From a virus: 60,409 nt of DNA. The notes under the pieces were generated by a model. That model did not search any database, was not told the origin of the DNA, and worked only from the letters and a program-made list of their open reading frames with translations. A program made the translations under genes and the position numbers. How positions within the stretch are numbered: the first letter of the stretch is position 1; the number at the start of each line of letters is the position of its first letter. Where the stretch lies: the IMG/VR virus record IMGVR_UViG_3300012929_000019, positions 1-60,409 of that record. The stretch is one strand, 5' to 3'. Of the stretch, positions 2,639 through 57,700 are shown piece by piece.

Positions 2639-3493
2639 TCACACACTCACATCACTCTGTACACGAGACCAACGCGCCTTTGCGGCTGCACTCATGCGCG
2701 CGATGGTCTCAGAAGAATTTTTACGACCTACGGGGTCGGCGGCACGGCGGGCGGCTGACCAGGGGCGACCTCGCGTAGTCCTAGATTGCTTTTTGCGAGA
2801 GGTGAGGGTACGTTCATGGCCTTTTTTCGCAGCAGATATCTTAGACCGCGTCTCCATAGACATTTCACCTTGCTGCTCCCATCGTTTTGCTGCGGCTACA
2901 CGCATCTTGATACGTGTAGCTTTTGTTGGCCGTGCTCGTTTCTGTTGCCCCGCCCGCATATTTGCTCGTGTTTGTTCCGATGTGCCACGTGCTTTTCGTA
3001 TTGCCCATGCGGCACGCATTTTGGCACGAGTTTCCTCGGATGGATTGGTCTTTCCTATTGATACCTTATTTTTCGCTTGTTTGCTATGCTTCCTGCCTTT
3101 GAACGATGGCTGCCAATCAGGATCTTTTTTGCGAGCATTCCACACATCTCGTAATTTCTGTTTTGTTTTCTCCGTGTACTTGATCCCTAACGTAGATCCT
3201 GCGACAGGACACAAATTAAAACCATTCGGCTCCATCGATTGTCCCGCGTCAATCCATGCTTGCTCACGCGCGAGCAATTGCGTCACATCCTTTACGATCT
3301 CCTCTATCGCAAACTTAAAGGCTTTGGGGCCATACATATTCCAGGCGCGTTGCAAATGGATATTCGGATGCACTCCTCTACAAAGCTGTTGTCGATGCTC
3401 TTTCATTCGTTTGAGAGCACGAGCGGACGAGCCGTAATAGGCTCGCCCACTCGCAACATGCACAATCGAATAAATGGCTGAAATCTTCAACAT
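2639..3493 (-). CDS. GIY-YIG homing endonuclease with NUMOD3-like repeats
   Basis: 284 residues. The N-terminal GIY-YIG nuclease is seen as AIYSIVHVASGRAYYGSS (residues 6-23), followed by the family's HR-x-HL and EE-like segments (KRMKEHRQQL, LLAREQAWID). From about residue 105 there are several short basic repeats of the NUMOD3 DNA-binding kind (HSKQAKNKVSIG, PSEETRAKMRAAW, SEQTRANMRAGQ). It is a free-standing element 8 bases after the capsid stop, is more AT-rich than its neighbours, and is followed by its own terminator. Such enzymes cleave phage alleles that lack the element. The target here is unknown. Confidence 0.9.
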   Translation of the reverse strand: MLKISAIYSIVHVASGRAYYGSSARALKRMKEHRQQLCRGVHPNIHLQRAWNMYGPKAFKFAIEEIVKDVTQLLAREQAWIDAGQSMEPNGFNLCPVAGSTLGIKYTEKTKQKLRDVWNARKKDPDWQPSFKGRKHSKQAKNKVSIGKTNPSEETRAKMRAAWAIRKARGTSEQTRANMRAGQQKRARPTKATRIKMRVAAAKRWEQQGEMSMETRSKISAAKKGHERTLTSRKKQSRTTRGRPWSAARRAADPVGRKNSSETIARMSAAAKARWSRVQSDVSV

Positions 3494-3501
3494 CTACTCT
3501 C

Positions 3502-43439: not shown

Positions 43440-43927
43440 CCCGAGATCAAGCGATTGAAATCGCGCGCGAGTGCGCGAAGGCAAAGCCTCAGAGCTATTA
43501 CGCGGAGCCCTTCGAGCCGCATGAATGGGTCGTGGATGCGATGATACGGGCCGGTAACACGATGCAAACGATCACGACGGAGCGCGATCGTTTGCAGCGG
43601 GAGAATGATTTTCTGCGCGCGCTCGTGGGCAATTCCGATAAAGCGTGCGTGTATTGCGGCTTGGGGGCTGAGTCCCAAGGCCAATGCGTGTTGGGATTTC
43701 CCGGATGCTCACGCGGCGATGACCAGATGCTCTGCCGGGAAGTCGGGGTCGCGATCGAGCGCGATGAATTAAAGCCCGATGCGGAACGTTATCGCTATTT
43801 GTGCACTGAGCGACTCGGGTGGTTCTCGCGCTGGGCCCCCGTCTACGATCCCGTGAACCCGAAGCGCACGGTGAAGGAATGTCTTGATGCGATACTCGAT
43901 CAATTACGAAAAGGAGAAGCGACATGA
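43436..43927 (+). CDS. Hypothetical protein with coiled coil and Cys cluster (163 aa)
   Basis: ATGA overlap start. A helical part (MQTITTERDRLQRENDFLRAL) precedes CVYCGLGAESQGQC ... FPGC, then ERYRYLCTERLGW. The R-x-x-L-C/R tail with a Trp-rich segment resembles proteins common in phage accessory regions. No function known. Confidence 0.55.
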   Translation: MTRDQAIEIARECAKAKPQSYYAEPFEPHEWVVDAMIRAGNTMQTITTERDRLQRENDFLRALVGNSDKACVYCGLGAESQGQCVLGFPGCSRGDDQMLCREVGVAIERDELKPDAERYRYLCTERLGWFSRWAPVYDPVNPKRTVKECLDAILDQLRKGEAT

Positions 43928-45844: not shown

Positions 45845-46035
45845 TTAAATCAAAAGTGGAGGACGTGATGACTGAGCGCGGGTGCCACCCGGGCCGTCCA
45901 CAGCTCGTGATGACGCAATACCGCCGCCACATCTTGAGCGCCAAGAAGAGGTACGGCTCGGCGCGCTCGCTCATTCATTACCGCCGATTCATCGAGAGCT
46001 ACCTGTGGGCGAAGCGGCAGGTGCTGGCCAAATGA
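45841..46035 (+). CDS. Basic hypothetical protein (64 aa)
   Basis: GTG start in a GTGA overlap. Product MIKSKVEDVMTERGCHPG and a Tyr/Arg-rich helix (YGSARSLIHYRRFIESYLW). Its TGA overlaps the polymerase ATG (ATGA), so it is coupled to polymerase translation. Confidence 0.5.
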   Translation: MIKSKVEDVMTERGCHPGRPQLVMTQYRRHILSAKKRYGSARSLIHYRRFIESYLWAKRQVLAK

Positions 46036-48821
46036 CTACCAAGTTTGCGATCATCGACCTCGAGACGTTCGCCATCATGCCACGCCCGCAATATCCGCCG
46101 GCGCCAGTGGGACTTGCTTGGTTGGTGGCTGGTAAGAAGGGGTACGAGCCATGCCGCTCGCCGTCGGAGCGTCAACGCTGCGCGAAGATGGTCAAGCAGT
46201 GGTACCGCGAGGGCATGGCACCGGTGTTTCACAACGCGAGCTTTGACCTGGACGTTTTAGAGACCCACCTAGGCGTCATGTGGCCTGCGGCTCATGAGGA
46301 CACGCTGCTGCTCGCGTATCTCTTTGAGCCGCGCGCGCCGACGTTCGCGTTGAAGCCCTTGGCTGAGCGGCTGCTGGGCGAGAGGCCAGACGAGCGCGAC
46401 GCCTTACGAGATTGGATCGTGGCCCACGTCAAGGGCGCGACGATGAAAACGTGGGGCGCCTACATCAGTGAGGCGCCGTTCGAGCTGGTGCGGCCGTATG
46501 CCATCGGCGACGTGGTGCGCACCGCCAAGCTCCATCAATTATTTTTAAGGCAGCTCAAGCTGGAGCCCAAGATGCAGGGCGCCTACGCGCGTGAGAAAAA
46601 GCTGACGCGGGTGCTCGTGAAGATGGAGCGGCGCGGCGTTCCGGTAGCCGTGCGCGCCCTCGCGCGCGACACCAAGCTCTGGCAGGCCCAGATGGGCGCC
46701 CTCGAGGGCCAGCTCTTCAAAGACCTCAAGGTGCCTAAGAAAGAGCGCAATGAGGAATTTGCGTGGTCAGGCGTGAACTTCGCCGAGCGGCTGTTAAAGA
46801 GCGGCATCGTTGACGAGCTGCCTCTCACGTTGAAGGGCAACCCGTCGACGAGCGCAGACAACCTGGGGCCGTTGCTCCCCCCTAAGATCGCGCACCGCTT
46901 GGAGCTCCGCGCGCAGCTGCAGACCTGCATCAGCACGTTCGCGCTCGCGTGGCTCGCGCAGGCCCAGGATGGCGGGCGGTTCTATGCGAGGTACAACCAG
47001 GTGCGCCAAAACAGTAACGGCAACGGCGGCATGGTTGGCACCACCACCGGGCGGTTGTCGCAAAGTCCCAACCTGCAGAACGTAATTCGAAGTGACAAGT
47101 CTGAGGAGGTGCCGCAGCTGCGCCGCTACCTGGTGCCACTCAACGGTTGGTGGTGGCTCAAGAGAGATTTTTGCTTTTCAGATGACACCGAGGTGTTGAC
47201 CGACGACGGCTGGAAGCTATTTAAGGATCTTGATAAGACAGAACGCATAGCTCAATGGCGCGTTGGTGAGGTATCATTTGCGAAACCTTTGGCTTATCAA
47301 ATGGTTCCTTATAAAGGGGACATGATAAACATCATAGGCCAACGCACGACTGATTTACTGGTATCACCAGACCATAAATGTTTACAGGTAAATGAAGATC
47401 GCGGTATTGAGTTCGTAAAAGCGATTGATTATTCTTTGGTCCATACACAGCAGGTACATGCAGGTGCGTTAGACAATGGTTTCCAGATACTTGAGCCAAT
47501 GAAGATACTCGTGGTAGCATTGCAAGCTGACGCTAAGGTGCTTTTCACTCGCGATGGGCGCCCACGAGCTATTTTTTATCTTAAAAAGCAACGCAAGATT
47601 GATCGTTTATTACAGGCTATTAAAAAATTCAAGCTTAAGCACACTGTCACGTACCCGCCTAGCAAACCAGGATTTAGTTGCATCACGTTCATGGTGCCGG
47701 CGCTAGCAGGATTACTCGATTTTATACGAAATGGTGAATCTTCAACGGCTATCAAAAAATTCAATATTGCAGCGTTGTTTGCAACTGATTTATCATCGCG
47801 TCAACGCTTTGTTCGTGAACTTCAATTTTGGGATGGCACGAAAGGTCCTTGTGACGGATGGGCATATACCACGACGGTAAAGCACAATGCTGACGTGATA
47901 CAGGCTGTAGCAGCGGTATCAGATATTCGTTCTACCTGTCATGAAACGTTGCTGCCATCTGGAAAACAATTTTATACCATTGGCCTTACAGATCGCGTCA
48001 ACCGTTCGTGGACCAAGTGCTATCAAAAGCTGTCCGTGCCTTATGATGGGGTCATCTATTGCGTAACTATGCCATGGAGCACGGTGATCGTTAGACGCAA
48101 CGGAAAGGTGATGGTAACTGGGCAATCGCAGCAGGAGTTCCGCATCTTCGCCCACTATGAGGGTGGTGAGCTGCTCGCGCGGTATAAGGCGCAGCCCGAC
48201 ATCGACGTCCACGTGGTTACGGGGCAGATCTTGAAGGAGCGCGCTGGCATCGAGCTCGCGCGTCGTGCGATGAAGGACGTCAACTTTGGGGTGCTCTACG
48301 CGATGGGCCGTGAGAAGATGGCGCGCAAGCTCAACCTAGATGACCTGACGGCGCAGCGCACGCTCGCTGCCTACCATCGCTCGCTGCCAGGGATCAAGCA
48401 GCTGCAGCGCCAGCTCGCCGCGTGCGCCGAGGCAGGTGAGCCCATCTACACGTGGGGCGGGCGCCGGTACTACGTCGAGCCGCCGAAGATGATGAACGTC
48501 AAGCGCCACGGCGTGACGCGGTTGGTCGAGCAGACCTTCGAGTACAAGCTCTTGAACCTGCTGGTGCAGGGCAGCGCGGCCGATGCCACGAAGGAGGCGA
48601 CCGTGCGCTATGATGAGACGGGTTGGAACGAGGACGATAAGGGCCCGCTGTTGTTGCAGGTCCATGACGAGCTCAACACGATGGCACTGGCCGCGCACCG
48701 GCAGGAGGCGATGCGGGTCTTGCGCGAGGCGATGACGTCGATCGAGCTCGACGTGCCGCTGCTGTCGGACGGCAGCGCGTCGCGGGTCTCGTGGAACGAC
48801 GTAAAAGATGTGACGTGGTGA
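46032..48821 (+). CDS. Family A DNA polymerase with 3'-5' exonuclease, interrupted by an intein
   Basis: 929 residues including a 318-residue intein. Exo motifs are complete: DLE (9-11), HNASFD (67-72) and YAIGD (156-160). Polymerase motif A is RDF-SQQEFR (split by the intein after F380), motif B is RRAMKDVNFGVLYAMG and motif C is LLLQVHDELN. Start at 46032 is set by the ATGA overlap and by the exo I motif; a frame extending upstream to 45882 is not needed. It is the replicative polymerase of the phage. Confidence 0.92.
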   Translation: MTTKFAIIDLETFAIMPRPQYPPAPVGLAWLVAGKKGYEPCRSPSERQRCAKMVKQWYREGMAPVFHNASFDLDVLETHLGVMWPAAHEDTLLLAYLFEPRAPTFALKPLAERLLGERPDERDALRDWIVAHVKGATMKTWGAYISEAPFELVRPYAIGDVVRTAKLHQLFLRQLKLEPKMQGAYAREKKLTRVLVKMERRGVPVAVRALARDTKLWQAQMGALEGQLFKDLKVPKKERNEEFAWSGVNFAERLLKSGIVDELPLTLKGNPSTSADNLGPLLPPKIAHRLELRAQLQTCISTFALAWLAQAQDGGRFYARYNQVRQNSNGNGGMVGTTTGRLSQSPNLQNVIRSDKSEEVPQLRRYLVPLNGWWWLKRDFCFSDDTEVLTDDGWKLFKDLDKTERIAQWRVGEVSFAKPLAYQMVPYKGDMINIIGQRTTDLLVSPDHKCLQVNEDRGIEFVKAIDYSLVHTQQVHAGALDNGFQILEPMKILVVALQADAKVLFTRDGRPRAIFYLKKQRKIDRLLQAIKKFKLKHTVTYPPSKPGFSCITFMVPALAGLLDFIRNGESSTAIKKFNIAALFATDLSSRQRFVRELQFWDGTKGPCDGWAYTTTVKHNADVIQAVAAVSDIRSTCHETLLPSGKQFYTIGLTDRVNRSWTKCYQKLSVPYDGVIYCVTMPWSTVIVRRNGKVMVTGQSQQEFRIFAHYEGGELLARYKAQPDIDVHVVTGQILKERAGIELARRAMKDVNFGVLYAMGREKMARKLNLDDLTAQRTLAAYHRSLPGIKQLQRQLAACAEAGEPIYTWGGRRYYVEPPKMMNVKRHGVTRLVEQTFEYKLLNLLVQGSAADATKEATVRYDETGWNEDDKGPLLLQVHDELNTMALAAHRQEAMRVLREAMTSIELDVPLLSDGSASRVSWNDVKDVTW
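47172..48125 (+). other. Intein in polymerase motif A with degenerate LAGLIDADG-like domain
   Basis: 318 residues from Cys1 (CFSDDTEVLTDDGW, block A) to Gln (VRRNGKVMVTGQ) before Ser+1. Block B is LLVSPDHKCLQV. The middle contains PALAGLLDFIRNG and FVRELQFWDGTKG, weak LAGLIDADG-type motifs. The terminal residue is Gln rather than Asn and the penultimate Gly rather than His. The DNA is visibly more AT-rich than the exteins, consistent with recent entry. Confidence 0.88.
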
Positions 48822-50325: not shown

Positions 50326-51853
50326 GGAGTTCAAAGCGCGGAACTACCAGGCGGCAGCCATCTCATGGGTCCTCAGCCGCCCGTTTTCAGGCTTGATCAT
50401 GCGTCCAGGACTCGGCAAGACCGCGTGCGTGCTCGCGGCGCGCGTGGTGCTCAAAAAGAAGAAGCTGTCGAAGCGCTGCCTCGTGATCGCGCCCTACAAC
50501 GTTGCGGCGATCGTCTGGGCTGAAGAGATCGCCAAGTGGGGGTTTGCGCTCAAAACCGGATTCGCGCACGGAACGAAGTTCGAGCAGGTGATCCAAGATA
50601 AGACGTTAGACGTGGTGACGATGACGTGCGACGGCGTGGAGCGTCTCGCGCGGACGTTCACGCCGAACGATATCTTAAAGCTGTTCGACCACCTCGTGTG
50701 TGATGAGTCAACCAAGTTCAAGCATACTGGTGCCAAGCGCTTCAAGCTACTGAAGCCGTACCTCTCGTCGTTCGCGCGCCGTACGGTGCTGACGGGGACG
50801 CCAGCGCCGAACGGGTATCAGGACCTCTTTGGCCAAGCGTTCGTAACTGACCGTGGCCACCGGCTCGGGAAGTTCATCACGCGCTACACGCTGGAGTATT
50901 TCAACAAGACCGGCTTCGGTGGCTACACCACCATCTTGAAGAAGGGCGCGGCCAAGAAGATCCAAGCGAAGTTGGGTGATGTGTGGATGTTCGTCAATGA
51001 TGAGGCGCTGGGCCTGGCGCGCTATCAGTTGAACCAGATCAGGATCGAATTGCCTGAGCGCGCGGCCGCGCATTACACGAGCTTGAGGCGCGACATGCTG
51101 CTCGACGTGGGAGGCAAGGCCATCACGGCCGTCAACGCGGCGGTGCTGTCGAACAAGCTCAGGCAGGTCGCGTCGGGCGCTGCGTATGGCGACGAGAAGC
51201 GCGTGGTCGATCTCCACGACGCCAAGCTCACCGCTCTGGTTGATCTAATAGAGCAGCTCCAGGGCGACCCGGTGATTGTTGGATACGAGTTTGACCACGA
51301 GCGCGCCAAGATCGTGAAGGAGCTAGGGCCTAAGACGCTCGTGATCCAGGGCGCGACGACCAAGAGGCAGCGCCGCGAGATCTTGGCCAAGTTCAATACG
51401 GGCGAGCACCCGGTGCTGCTCGCGCAGTCCGCCACGATCGCGCACGGTTTAAATCTACAAAAAGCGTGCCACACCGTATGCTTCTACACGGTGCCATGGG
51501 ACCTCGAGGTGTTCGAGCAGTTTTTGAAGCGCGTCCACCGCCTGGGGCAGTTGAAGCGCGTCATGGTCCACGCGATCGTGGCACGTGGCACCATCGACGA
51601 GGGCGTGCTCAAGGTGCTGAGGATGAAAGACCACACCCAGCGCCAGCTGGTCGCCGCGCTCGCGGCCCATATAGAGGAGACAGATGATGACGATGTTTCA
51701 AGATGTGGCAAAGTTCCACGAGAAATTCGACGTACCGGTCGCGTTGTCGGAGGGCGGCGGGCAGTTGCCGCAGGTGCCAAGCCGCGAGGTACTCGATTAC
51801 CGCGAAAGGTTCATGCAAGAGGAACTCGACGAATTCAAAAAAGCGTCGCTTGA
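50318..51853 (+). CDS. SNF2-family helicase
   Basis: 511 residues from GTG. Motif I is RPGLGKTA, motif II HLVCDESTKFKH (DEST instead of DEAH), motif III LTGTPAPNG, and the second RecA domain has ILAKFNTGEHPVLLAQSATIAHGLNLQ and QFLKRVHRLGQ (motif VI). It is typical of phage SNF2 helicases with VRR-NUC partners. After IEETDDDD the last ~60 residues are Arg-rich and lie over the MazG gene in another frame, an unusually long overlap that may reflect a lost stop codon. Confidence 0.87.
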   Translation: MVEEFKARNYQAAAISWVLSRPFSGLIMRPGLGKTACVLAARVVLKKKKLSKRCLVIAPYNVAAIVWAEEIAKWGFALKTGFAHGTKFEQVIQDKTLDVVTMTCDGVERLARTFTPNDILKLFDHLVCDESTKFKHTGAKRFKLLKPYLSSFARRTVLTGTPAPNGYQDLFGQAFVTDRGHRLGKFITRYTLEYFNKTGFGGYTTILKKGAAKKIQAKLGDVWMFVNDEALGLARYQLNQIRIELPERAAAHYTSLRRDMLLDVGGKAITAVNAAVLSNKLRQVASGAAYGDEKRVVDLHDAKLTALVDLIEQLQGDPVIVGYEFDHERAKIVKELGPKTLVIQGATTKRQRREILAKFNTGEHPVLLAQSATIAHGLNLQKACHTVCFYTVPWDLEVFEQFLKRVHRLGQLKRVMVHAIVARGTIDEGVLKVLRMKDHTQRQLVAALAAHIEETDDDDVSRCGKVPREIRRTGRVVGGRRAVAAGAKPRGTRLPRKVHARGTRRIQKSVA

Positions 51854-54263: not shown

Positions 54264-55184
54264 ATGATCATCATCCTAGAGGGCCCGGACGGCGCCGGAA
54301 AGACCGTCCTCGCCACCATATTAGACCAGCGGCTCACGCGCCTCGAACACGTCGTCGCGACGCAGCACCACGGGCCCTACGCCGGGTGCCAGGACCCGTC
54401 GCTCAACTATCTGGCGAGCCTGGAGCGGCAGCGCTATGGCAGGTACCGGAGCGGCATCAAGATCTTGGACCGCTGCTGGCTCTCTGAAATTCCTTATGGC
54501 CGCGCGCTGCGCGGTGGCGCGGACCGCGTGGGTACCGCCTCACGGCGCATGCTCGAGCGCGTGGCGCTGCGCCTAGGCGCGTTCGTGATCCTGTGTCGGC
54601 CGTCTTTTGAGACGTGCCAGCGCAACTGGGCCCAGCGCCGAGCTTACGAGCTGGCCCAGGATAACGAGACCATCAAAAAGATCTATGACGGATACGCGCC
54701 TGAGGCCCTCGCGAGCGCCACCAGCCTCCCCGTGGTCGCTTACGACTACACGGGCACGCGCGACGCGCTCGAGCCCGCGCTCGCGCAGATCATCGCCTTG
54801 AAAGACTACGCGCCGCCTGAGGCGGGCGTTGGCCGCTGGCACCCGGACTCGACGCTGCTGGTGGGCGATCGCGTGAGCCGGTACGGATTTAACGACCTTC
54901 CCTTCGTGTCGTTCACCCGCGGCGGGTGCTCGCAGTGGCTCGCCCAGAAACTCGAGGGCTGGGGCGTGCCTGAGTCCAAGCTCTACTGGGTCAACGCGCT
55001 CGGGCTAGACCCGGAGTTCTTAGGCCATGAGGGCGCGCCTAAGCGCGTGGTAGCGCTCGGGGCCAACGCGGCCAGGTGGTGCGAGCGCGCCGGCATCGGC
55101 TTTACGCGGGTGGCCCACCCGCAGGCGCACAAGCGGTTTCGCTTCAACGAGGAATACGCGGATCTCAAGGAGGCGCTCTTATGA
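54264..55184 (+). CDS. Thymidylate-kinase-like P-loop kinase fused to a UDG-superfamily-like domain
   Basis: 306 residues. Residues 1-180: Walker A GPDGAGKTVL, ILDRCWLSEIPYG (DR motif) and LCRPSFETCQRNW. Residues 190-306: STLLVGDRVSR, LPFVSFTRGGCSQWLAQKLEGWG, KLYWVNALGLD, RVVALGANAARWC and VAHPQAHKRF, reminiscent of the uracil-DNA-glycosylase superfamily (Asn/strand and terminal HP segment). Fusion of a nucleotide or base kinase with a glycosylase-like fold recalls DNA base-modification proteins. The second domain call is tentative. Confidence 0.65.
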   Translation: MIIILEGPDGAGKTVLATILDQRLTRLEHVVATQHHGPYAGCQDPSLNYLASLERQRYGRYRSGIKILDRCWLSEIPYGRALRGGADRVGTASRRMLERVALRLGAFVILCRPSFETCQRNWAQRRAYELAQDNETIKKIYDGYAPEALASATSLPVVAYDYTGTRDALEPALAQIIALKDYAPPEAGVGRWHPDSTLLVGDRVSRYGFNDLPFVSFTRGGCSQWLAQKLEGWGVPESKLYWVNALGLDPEFLGHEGAPKRVVALGANAARWCERAGIGFTRVAHPQAHKRFRFNEEYADLKEALL

Positions 55185-55978
55185 GGACCGTCAACTCACG
55201 GCACATGGACTACGCGTGGCTCGCGGCGTTGGATCATATCGAGTGGGGCGGCGATACCGTCACGCCGCGCGGGCAGCCCACGAAGGAGCTCGTCTGCCAC
55301 ACGATGATCGTCGACATGACGCGGCCCGTGGTGACGGTCAAGGAGCGCCACCTTGGCTACCGGTTCATGTGCGCCGAGGCGGCGTGGCTGCTGTCGGGTG
55401 ACGACCGCGTGGAAACGATCGCGCCCTACTCGAAGACCATCGCCAACTTCTCAGATGACGGCGCGACGTTTTTTGGGGCCTACGGGCCCAAGCTGCGCGC
55501 GCAGCTAGACTACGTGGTCGGCTGCCTGCGCGATGATCCTCTGAGCCGCCAGGCGGTGGCCAACATCTGGCGCGAGAGCCCGCGGAAAACAAAAGACTAC
55601 CCGTGCCACCTGAGCACGCAGTTTTTGATCCGCGACGGACGGCTCCACCAGGTCGCGACGATGCGGTCGTCGGATTTATTTCTTGGTATCGTCTACGATA
55701 TTTTTAATTTTTCGATGTGGGCCGCGTACGTGGCGATCTGCCTAGGCGACCGGAACCTCAAGCTCGGAAATATCTACAATACCGCGGCGAGCCGCCACCT
55801 GTATGACACCAACGCTGCCGCCGCGACCGCGTGCCTCGCGGACCCAGCGGCTAAGTTCGAGTACGCCCCGTTCAGGTGGACGGAGTTCGTCGATAGCGAG
55901 GACCTCATTGACCACCTGTGGCGGCTGGCGCGTGGGCAGGTGTTGTTCCGTGAGTGGCTCAAGGAGCTCAGGGCATGA
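55181..55978 (+). CDS. Thymidylate synthase family, probably dCMP (hydroxy)methyltransferase
   Basis: 265 residues. The ATG at 55181 has AAGGAGG seven bases upstream and overlaps the kinase stop. Catalytic DYPCHLSTQF holds the nucleophilic Cys; TMRSSDLFLGIVYD holds the phosphate-binding RS. The position that is Asn177 in E. coli thymidylate synthase (GLPFN) is Asp here (GIVYD), the change known to favour dCMP over dUMP. RHLYDTN fits the H-x-Y sugar-binding segment. It may make 5-methyl- or 5-hydroxymethyl-dCMP. Confidence 0.75.
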   Translation: MRTVNSRHMDYAWLAALDHIEWGGDTVTPRGQPTKELVCHTMIVDMTRPVVTVKERHLGYRFMCAEAAWLLSGDDRVETIAPYSKTIANFSDDGATFFGAYGPKLRAQLDYVVGCLRDDPLSRQAVANIWRESPRKTKDYPCHLSTQFLIRDGRLHQVATMRSSDLFLGIVYDIFNFSMWAAYVAICLGDRNLKLGNIYNTAASRHLYDTNAAAATACLADPAAKFEYAPFRWTEFVDSEDLIDHLWRLARGQVLFREWLKELRA

Positions 55979-56427
55979 GGATCGAGAAAGACGAGTGGTA
56001 CCTTGAGATCGCGAGGGTGGTCGCGCGCCGCAGCACGTGCGCGCGCCGCCAGGTCGGGTGCGTGCTGGTCGACGAGATCGGGAGGATCATGAGCACGGGG
56101 TTCAACGGCGTGCCGCGCGGCATGACGCACTGCACCGAGAGCCCGTGCGCGGGCGCGGGCCTGCCGTCGGGCACGGGCTTAGACCTATGCGCGAGCACCC
56201 ACGGCGAGGCTAACGCGCTGCTGCAGTGCCCTGACGTCGAGCGCGTCCACACGTGCTACTCGACCACCGAGCCGTGCGTTCATTGCGCCAAGCTCCTGAT
56301 GAACACGAGCTGCGAGCGCGTGCTCTATATAGAGCCGTACCCGGGCGACGCGGCAGCGCTCTGGCTCCGGACGCGCGGGCCCGGCACCTGGTCGCGCTTC
56401 CAAGCGCGCGTAAAGCGTCCGCCATAG
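55975..56427 (+). CDS. dCMP deaminase
   Basis: 150 residues from the ATGA-overlapped ATG. Zinc site: STHGEANALLQ (H-x-E) and EPCVHCAKLLMN (PCxxC); the N-terminal STCARRQVGCVLVDE and STGFNGVPRG are standard. It converts dCMP to dUMP. Next to the thymidylate-synthase-family enzyme it balances dCMP and dUMP pools. A terminator follows 24 bases after the stop. Confidence 0.9.
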   Translation: MRIEKDEWYLEIARVVARRSTCARRQVGCVLVDEIGRIMSTGFNGVPRGMTHCTESPCAGAGLPSGTGLDLCASTHGEANALLQCPDVERVHTCYSTTEPCVHCAKLLMNTSCERVLYIEPYPGDAAALWLRTRGPGTWSRFQARVKRPP

Positions 56428-56451: not shown

Positions 56452-56471
56452 AGCCCGGACAGGGCTTTTTT
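56452..56471 (+). terminator. Rho-independent terminator after dCMP deaminase
   Basis: AGCCC (56452-56456) pairs with GGGCT (56462-56466), loop GGACA, followed by a T run to 56471. It ends the nucleotide-metabolism operon before the gene-free region. Confidence 0.85.
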
Positions 56472-56534
56472 CCATAAAAGAGGGCTAGAAGGGCACTTTT
56501 TTTCACTAAAAAGGCTCAAGGCATGCCCTCGCCC

Positions 56535-56566
56535 CTATGTACAGCGTCGTGTGAAAACTATGTACA
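56535..56566. repeat. Direct repeats CTATGTACA upstream of the RNA promoter
   Basis: CTATGTACA occurs at 56535-56543 and 56558-56566, about two helical turns apart, just upstream of the TTGTAT/TAGAAT promoter. Possible regulator binding sites. Confidence 0.5.
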
Positions 56567-56572
56567 AAATTG

Positions 56573-56602
56573 TTGTATATCGGCGTCATTCAGGCTTAGA
56601 AT
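56573..56602 (+). promoter_or_regulatory. Candidate promoter for the structured RNA
   Basis: TTGTAT (56573-56578), an 18-base spacer and TAGAAT (56597-56602). Transcription would begin near 56609, at the start of the hairpin-dense region and after a terminator, as expected for an independent transcript. Confidence 0.55.
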
Positions 56603-56608
56603 GAGCAC

Positions 56609-57219
56609 TGGTTGATTGATTATGAGATGGAGACCGGGCCCGTTCGAACGGGTACGCGCCGGGGCGCAGCGGGGACAGGGAGTTCCCATGGTGGTAGGGG
56701 ACGCACATAGCGCGGTGCGTCACGACGAGTACGGAGCTAAGGTAACGGGCGCGAGCGTAAGTCAGCCGACAGAGCTGCTGCCCGCGAGCGAGGTGTGAAG
56801 GAGGAACCCTTCACAACGATCCTGAAAGGGATCAACTCGCGAACGATGCGAAACCCAGCATCGACCAGTGACGGAAGTCGTAGAACCCGATCGCGCAAAA
56901 CCAACGCGATTTGAAAGCACGTCCAGCCGCGGCGCGATGAATCAAAGGGCTAGTAACTACGCGAGGTAGCAGCGCGACGACGAATGACAAAACGTTGTGA
57001 GGCGCGAAGTAGTCGGACTCGGACCCGCTAGCCGAGACAATGGGAAAAGGAAAATTTGATGAAGGCCGCGAGAGCGTTGCCAGTACCCGGAACGGGGCCG
57101 TGCCGCTCGATCGTCGTCAAGATCATCCGGAATAACCTGAGCCAGTACCTACGGAAACGTTGCAGGGTTGGGGTCGAGTAACAAGGAATAAGTGCTCACA
57201 CACAACAGACCTCGACCCT
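56609..57219 (+). ncRNA. Large structured noncoding RNA candidate (~0.6 kb)
   Basis: No credible gene lies here, yet the sequence is packed with stems: CCCGTTCGAACGGG (56639-56652); GACGCAC/GTGCGTC (56700-56706/56715-56721); CGGGC/GCCCG (56746-56750/56780-56784); TGTGAAGG/CCTTCACA (56794-56815); GATCC with GAAA loop (56818-56833); CGATGC/GCATCG (56844-56863); ATCGCG/CGCGAT (56890-56910); CTAC/GTAG (56957-56969); ACGACG/CGTTGT (56977-56998); CTCGG/CCGAG (57018-57036); GGGTCGAG/CTCGACCC (57171-57218). A-rich single-stranded joints lie between. Size and phage setting resemble GOLLD/ROOL RNAs; I cannot confirm the class. Confidence 0.7.
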
Positions 57220-57264
57220 GTAACGCAATGCGCATTTGAAAACAAGAGTGCGCATTGCTGTTAC
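57220..57264 (+). promoter_or_regulatory. Long 15-bp hairpin at the RNA/gene boundary
   Basis: GTAAC+GCAATGCGCA (57220-57234) pairs with TGCGCATTGC+GTTAC (57249-57258 and 57260-57264) with one bulged T and a 14-base loop. There is no T run after it. It may cap the 3' end of the structured RNA, or shield the Shine-Dalgarno region of the next gene 17 bases on. Confidence 0.65.
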
Positions 57265-57280
57265 AACAATGGAGACGAAC

Positions 57281-57484
57281 ATGAGCAAAAAGCAAACTCC
57301 GCGTCGGAGTAAAAGATACAACGAAGTTGCGGCACAATTTGGTGATGAAGTCGCAGCGCAGTTTGGTGAAAACTTTATGGTGGTTGACGATCTCAATAGC
57401 TTAGTCGTCGTTAGTACCAAGAAAACGAAAAAACCTGTGGCTGGACGACGTTTTCGCGATGCTTATTTCGCAAACAAAGCGTGA
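57281..57484 (+). CDS. Small protein with internal EVAAQFG duplication (67 aa)
   Basis: GGAG six bases before the ATG. Product MSKKQTPRRSKRYNEVAAQFGDEVAAQFGENF in two blocks (NEVAAQFG then DEVAAQFG) and a basic C-terminus. No family recognised. It is the first gene after the structured RNA. Confidence 0.6.
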   Translation: MSKKQTPRRSKRYNEVAAQFGDEVAAQFGENFMVVDDLNSLVVVSTKKTKKPVAGRRFRDAYFANKA

Positions 57485-57517: not shown

Positions 57518-57700
57518 ATGGACACGACCCTTTCGTTATTTCAAGTCGCGCTGGTGCTCGGGATGAGCATGAGCGCCACCGCAAACCTCGTGCGACGCAA
57601 ATTGCTCAAGCGCAAAGAGCGACGCAACAAGATCGATTTTTTCGAGGCGCAGGACGTGCAGGAGTACATCAGTCGGCAGAACCGGGAGCAAGCGACATGA
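57518..57700 (+). CDS. Small HTH / excisionase-like protein (60 aa)
   Basis: GGAG nine bases upstream. Product MDTTLSLFQVALVLGMSM then ATANLVRRKLLKRKERR and FFEAQDVQEYISRQ, the layout of MerR/excisionase-like winged helices. It may bind DNA as a small regulator. ATGA overlap with the next gene. Confidence 0.6.
   Translation: MDTTLSLFQVALVLGMSMSATANLVRRKLLKRKERRNKIDFFEAQDVQEYISRQNREQAT

Follow-up and report, generated by a model that had tools for sequence, protein, structure and literature searches.

A candidate plus-strand structured RNA downstream of the nucleotide operon of an uncultivated virus

Described large RNAs and the setting of the locus

GOLLD and ROOL are phage RNAs often located near tRNA islands, and build RNA-only cages; the function of these RNAs is not known (PMC12286853). 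The locus described here lies in the IMG/VR record IMGVR_UViG_3300012929_000019 of an uncultivated virus, whose 60,409 bases, analyzed in full, are hereafter called the window. A preliminary description had likened the region 56609-57264 to GOLLD and ROOL. The candidate shares with GOLLD a large, ornate fold, the residence in phage or prophage DNA, A-rich joints and a GAAA-capped hairpin, but is shorter than many GOLLDs, which measure >800 nt (PMC12286853). GOLLDs are also associated with tRNA islands, if not as a strict requirement, whereas neither tRNA nor tmRNA genes were found by ARAGORN in the 60 kb. ROOL is comparable in size class (574 model positions), is phage-borne and has a complex multi-branch fold, but differs in that its model finds no match, and no tRNA is nearby in this record. 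OLE RNA and other large bacterial RNAs in Rfam are alike in being about 600 nt long, non-coding and ornate, but none matches the stretch. Circularly permuted group II ribozymes (PMC8637638) are likewise large structured RNAs without ORF, but no domain 5/6-like element is present here.

Infernal searches did not sustain membership in GOLLD or ROOL. The GOLLD model (RF02032), applied for its conserved 3' region, found nothing anywhere in the record at E <= 10, and cmscan of the stretch was also negative. The ROOL model (RF03087) was equally silent at E <= 10 over the record, a weak test as no control genome matched it either, and cmscan of the stretch was again without match. With Rfam 15, no family reached its gathering level in a cmscan of the window, and at E <= 10 the stretch, searched whole and in two parts, gave chance hits only. 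The group II domain 5-6 model (RF00029) had no hit in the stretch, and chance-level hits elsewhere, at 50774 and 13399.

Late genes (terminase, portal, head) fill the minus strand of the first 35 kb, replication and nucleotide genes the plus strand from 36 kb. The operon 5' of the locus encodes, in this order, DNA polymerase, PD-(D/E)XK nuclease, helicase, cytosine-5 methyltransferase, a second methyltransferase, thymidylate-kinase-like and thymidylate-synthase-like proteins, and ends with dCMP deaminase, whose identity to the phage enzymes reaches 53%. The features of the region are as follows.

55975-56427 (+), dCMP deaminase gene, end of the nucleotide operon (phrog_174, 1.7e-39)
56452-56472 (+), terminator-like hairpin AGCCC GGACA GGGCT followed by T-rich DNA, closing the operon (terminator scan)
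56535-56566 (+), direct repeats CTATGTACA, two exact copies 23 bp apart in AT-rich DNA, the sole exact copies in the window
56609-57264 (+), candidate structured non-coding RNA, whole (fold excess, no coding signal)
57059-57181 (+), candidate ORF of 40 aa preceded by AAGGA; overlaps the RNA in its 3' portion (-0.04 bit per codon)
57281-57484 (+), first small downstream gene, 67 aa, no phage match by tblastn

The locus had been described as preceded by a terminator and a plausible promoter. The former is recognizable in the hairpin at 56452-56472, with the proviso that terminator-like sites (4, against 3.1 +/- 1.9 expected) are near chance in number. The latter was not recovered, as no sigma-70-like site passes the scan on the plus strand upstream of the RNA. 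The best promoter-like site by eye is TTGTAT-18-TAGAAT (8/12), and a weak -10-like TAGAAT occurs at 56597-56602. The CTATGTACA repeat zone is possibly an operator or promoter region.

At the opposite side, a GGAG Shine-Dalgarno motif is located just 3' of the second of two tandem hairpins and just 5' of the 57281 start. The neighbouring small genes at 57281 and 57697, both on the plus strand, have near-identical starts, ACATGAGCAAAAARCAA; in the former, about 24 nt are duplicated in tandem (EVAAQFGD EVAAQFGE). Just downstream of the RNA, the 60-aa protein encoded at 57518-57700 (+) has a sub-threshold match to HTH_17 (helix-turn-helix; E 0.0044), and is possibly a small regulator.

Coding signal and folding of the stretch

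The ORF-free gap at 56507-57195 measures 689 nt and is the largest in the record, a compact genome, exceeding the runner-up (208 nt) by a factor of three. No coding-like frame is found from the dCMP deaminase stop at 56427 to the next clear start at 57281. Codon-usage log-odds across 56480-57260 are negative in all six frames; by the same measure, 91% of 40-codon pieces taken from the genes of this phage score positive. The absence of genes from these approximately 650 bases, as first described, is borne out by both measures, and 56609-57264 is gene-free as far as sequence can tell. The 40-aa ORF is neither clearly coding nor excluded on its codon score; its ribosome-binding site is plausible, and no convincing relative was found among the fetched loci. 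Several weak blastn matches stack on 57098-57127, and are taken as common codon strings.

Folding is more stable than in shuffled sequences, mainly on one strand. For 56600-57275, z is -6.0 on the plus strand (20 shuffles) and -2.5 on the minus strand; for 56609-57264 the values are -5.3 and -2.1. On the plus strand the stretch has one-strand fold stability beyond that due to composition. The excess is not uniform, but concentrated in two foci, 56656-56935 and 57158-57258. The former segment has z -4.2, and the tandem hairpins at 57150-57264 z -8.5, with none of 200 shuffles as good in either case. In a local scan of the whole 60-kb record, both strands, by 200-nt segments (n=804), the plus-strand segments starting at 57151 and 56701 rank first and fifth, respectively. 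By contrast, z is about +1 for the segments that begin at 56851 and 57001, which fold no better than shuffles. Other strong local folds in the same scan are found at 43501-43700 (+), z -5.2, and 3301-3500 (-), z -5.1; longer pieces fold weaker at both sites (z -2.65 and -3.1, respectively).

Counts of stems depend on stringency. The stretch contains 9 hairpins of >=6 bp with <=1 wobble. Dinucleotide shuffles (n=100) have 3.1 +/- 1.4 and never more than 7, and tiles of the record (n=183) have 4.3 +/- 2.0. By a laxer count the 15 stems found are ordinary (13.2 +/- 2.6 per tile). The preliminary description had listed at least ten good stems, at a density far above the neighbouring DNA; the excess over shuffles stands, with a strict count of nine, but the second statement goes too far, as the laxer count is ordinary and the tile at 56089, mostly made of the adjoining GC-rich gene, has 13 hairpins of >=6 bp. 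The A-rich joints and the GAAA-capped hairpin noted there are both present, the hairpin at 56818-56833. Adenines account for 47% of the unpaired bases, a share that none of 43 tiles reaches, although the whole stretch is also A-rich relative to T for this genome.

Predicted anatomy

The predicted fold, all on the plus strand, is made up of the following elements.

56635-56655 with 57083-57100 (+), long-range closing helix, 17 bp with a GAA bulge, pair probability 0.97-1.0
56656-56935 (+), compact multi-branch domain, closed by the helix 56656-56665/56926-56935, which is stacked on the long-range one
56739-56868 (+), core junction, source of the covariance model R1
56746-56784 (+), arm of the core junction
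56788-56840 (+), three-way arm, carrying the hairpins 56794-56815 (8-bp) and 56818-56833
56818-56833 (+), GAAA-capped 6-bp hairpin
56844-56863 (+), hairpin of the core junction
56948-57033 (+), weaker 3' sub-domain, closed by GGCUAGU/GCUAGCC, pair probability 0.66-0.77, local z of about +1
57158-57225 (+), long hairpin, 17-18 bp with a loop of about 32 nt, pair probability 0.98-1.0
57225-57258 (+), second tandem hairpin, 13 bp, no T-run behind

The closing helix is near-certain in the energy model, and only modestly unusual for the base composition. It is equalled in 11 of 2000 shuffles and in about 3% of genome tiles, and was rejected as structural proof for this reason. The long hairpin features three G-U wobbles and no A-C mismatch, which would be expected of an element maintained as plus-strand RNA. 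Since no T-run follows them, the tandem hairpins are not intrinsic terminators.

Relatives and readings of the locus

According to DNA polymerase, helicase and dCMP deaminase, the nearest cultured relatives are Stenotrophomonas phage AXL3 (Axeltriavirus) and Pseudoxanthomonas phage PW916; further relatives are the environmental phage ctUtU524 and, for dCMP deaminase, Xanthomonas phage Xp15. Gene order within the module is largely common to these phages. AXL3 and PW916 have in common with the window the order DNA polymerase, exonuclease, helicase, methyltransferase, then thymidylate kinase, thymidylate-synthase-like gene and dCMP deaminase, but no counterpart of the RNA is found in their records. 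The thymidylate-synthase-like gene, which adjoins the thymidylate-kinase-like gene within 54264-55978 (+), is 47-48% identical to the AXL3, PW916 and ctUtU524 copies. Because the PW916 counterpart is annotated as a deoxyuridylate hydroxymethyltransferase, the nucleotide operon may serve DNA base modification. In ctUtU524 (MW202621, locus L025, 6910-7829) an unannotated gap of 919 nt, probably a missed gene, is found where AXL3 has the thymidylate kinase gene.

The family A DNA polymerase (45882-48821, plus strand) carries an insert of about 320 residues (residues about 431-745) with matches to phrogs of ribonucleotide reductase, PhoH and thymidylate synthase, and a weak one to an intein N-terminal splicing model; the insert is a probable intein, judging from these matches. 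Residues 99-430 match the NCBIfam model phage_DpoZ_1 (aminoadenine-incorporating DNA polymerase; 9.4e-39, far below its cut-off), in contrast to the rest of the module, which resembles that of dUMP-hydroxymethylase phages.

Homologues of the RNA were sought at several levels. In phage and plasmid collections, blastn gave only short chance matches (about 20-45 nt). Viral contigs were scanned with four DNA patterns drawn from the stretch, and genome contigs with one; hits were few, and none extends. Three distant viruses and the named phages, compared by nhmmer, by blastn and with a covariance model built on the core, gave nothing either. By DNA similarity and model R1, the RNA was not found in the thymidylate-synthase-like clade (80 IMG/VR loci) or in 50 whole related records, a set which includes AXL3, PW916, ctUtU524 and Xp15 and may leave out the records nearest the window. 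Other large gaps in the kin loci have no strong plus-strand A bias as featured by the candidate; where the fold excess is comparable, the gap is AT-rich and both strands share the excess.

The region 56609-57264 is best read as a plus-strand structured non-coding RNA, represented by a single sequence without relatives. Its probable origin is the 5' portion of the transcript that serves the downstream small genes, from which it would be processed. Transcription would begin past the dCMP deaminase terminator, cross the folded region and enter the small genes; read-through is suggested because nothing terminator-like is found at 57258. The tandem hairpins at 57158-57258 would mark the processing boundary, as an RNase III-type site, where cleavage would detach the folded 5' RNA, a stable species of about 56609-57150, from the small-gene mRNA. 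The released RNA would work free during infection, like other large phage RNAs. This full account, a plus-strand folded RNA released at the tandem hairpins and acting free, is put forward tentatively, as the one favoured among those considered. Against it stand the lack of homologues and hence of covariation, the weak folding of the middle and the body, the modest standing of the closing helix, the failure of the promoter scan and the fact that relatives with the same module show no such element at this place.

The same transcript might act in cis only, as a long 5' leader through which the small genes are controlled at the level of translation, stability or attenuation, with no separate RNA formed. 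RNA and small genes reside on the same strand and are closely spaced, no terminator follows the hairpins, and these end about 20 nt before the 57281 start. However, 650 nt far exceed the length of most cis elements, no riboswitch family matches, and the strongest fold outside the hairpins sits about 350-600 nt away from the gene, all of which makes action as a leader alone somewhat unlikely.

Function may alternatively be restricted to the tandem 3' hairpins, serving mRNA processing or insulation, the rest being non-coding or decayed DNA or tiny fast-evolving ORFs, and hairpins arising in part from high GC and purine bias. Consistent with this, the body deprived of the 3' hairpins (56609-57150) has z of only -2.5 (1 of 100 shuffles as good), local z is about +1 in 56851-57150, the lax stem count is ordinary, and a possible 40-aa ORF with a ribosome-binding site is present at 57059-57181. 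The multi-branch domain at 56656-56935, however, exceeds all 200 shuffles on its own, and no frame has a coding-like codon pattern. Idle DNA of about 700 nt is seldom retained in phage genomes. On these grounds, a role limited to the 3' hairpins is unlikely.

The favoured reading, a released plus-strand RNA, could be carried further. The locus would then represent a new class of large ornate phage RNA, seen here for the first time and separate from GOLLD and ROOL. Cleaved from a polycistronic leader at the tandem hairpins, the RNA would act free, perhaps as an oligomer, in a phage whose nucleotide operon is of the DNA-base-modification type; so extended, the proposal is quite doubtful.

Hairpins and repeats might also act in DNA, as a replication origin or packaging site. 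The AT-rich stretch with the two exact CTATGTACA repeats lies just upstream, and the locus is found at the end of the replication module; yet the two strands differ in fold excess, and G-U pairs but no A-C mismatches occur in the long hairpin, so that a DNA-level element is very improbable. Size, purine-rich multi-branch fold and the probable intein elsewhere in the phage would be compatible with a diverged self-splicing or mobile ribozyme, such as the remnant of a group II intron or a group II ribozyme in circularly permuted form. The stretch, however, has neither a domain 5-6 hit nor an Rfam intron match even at E = 10, and the locus lies between genes, not within one; a ribozyme of this kind is hardly credible.

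At present the value of the locus is that of a precisely defined target, on which transcripts can be mapped and the structure probed; it is one sequence rather than the discovery of a class. In a phage group that has cultured relatives, a further unrelated large RNA would provide an independent system for asking what role such RNAs have.
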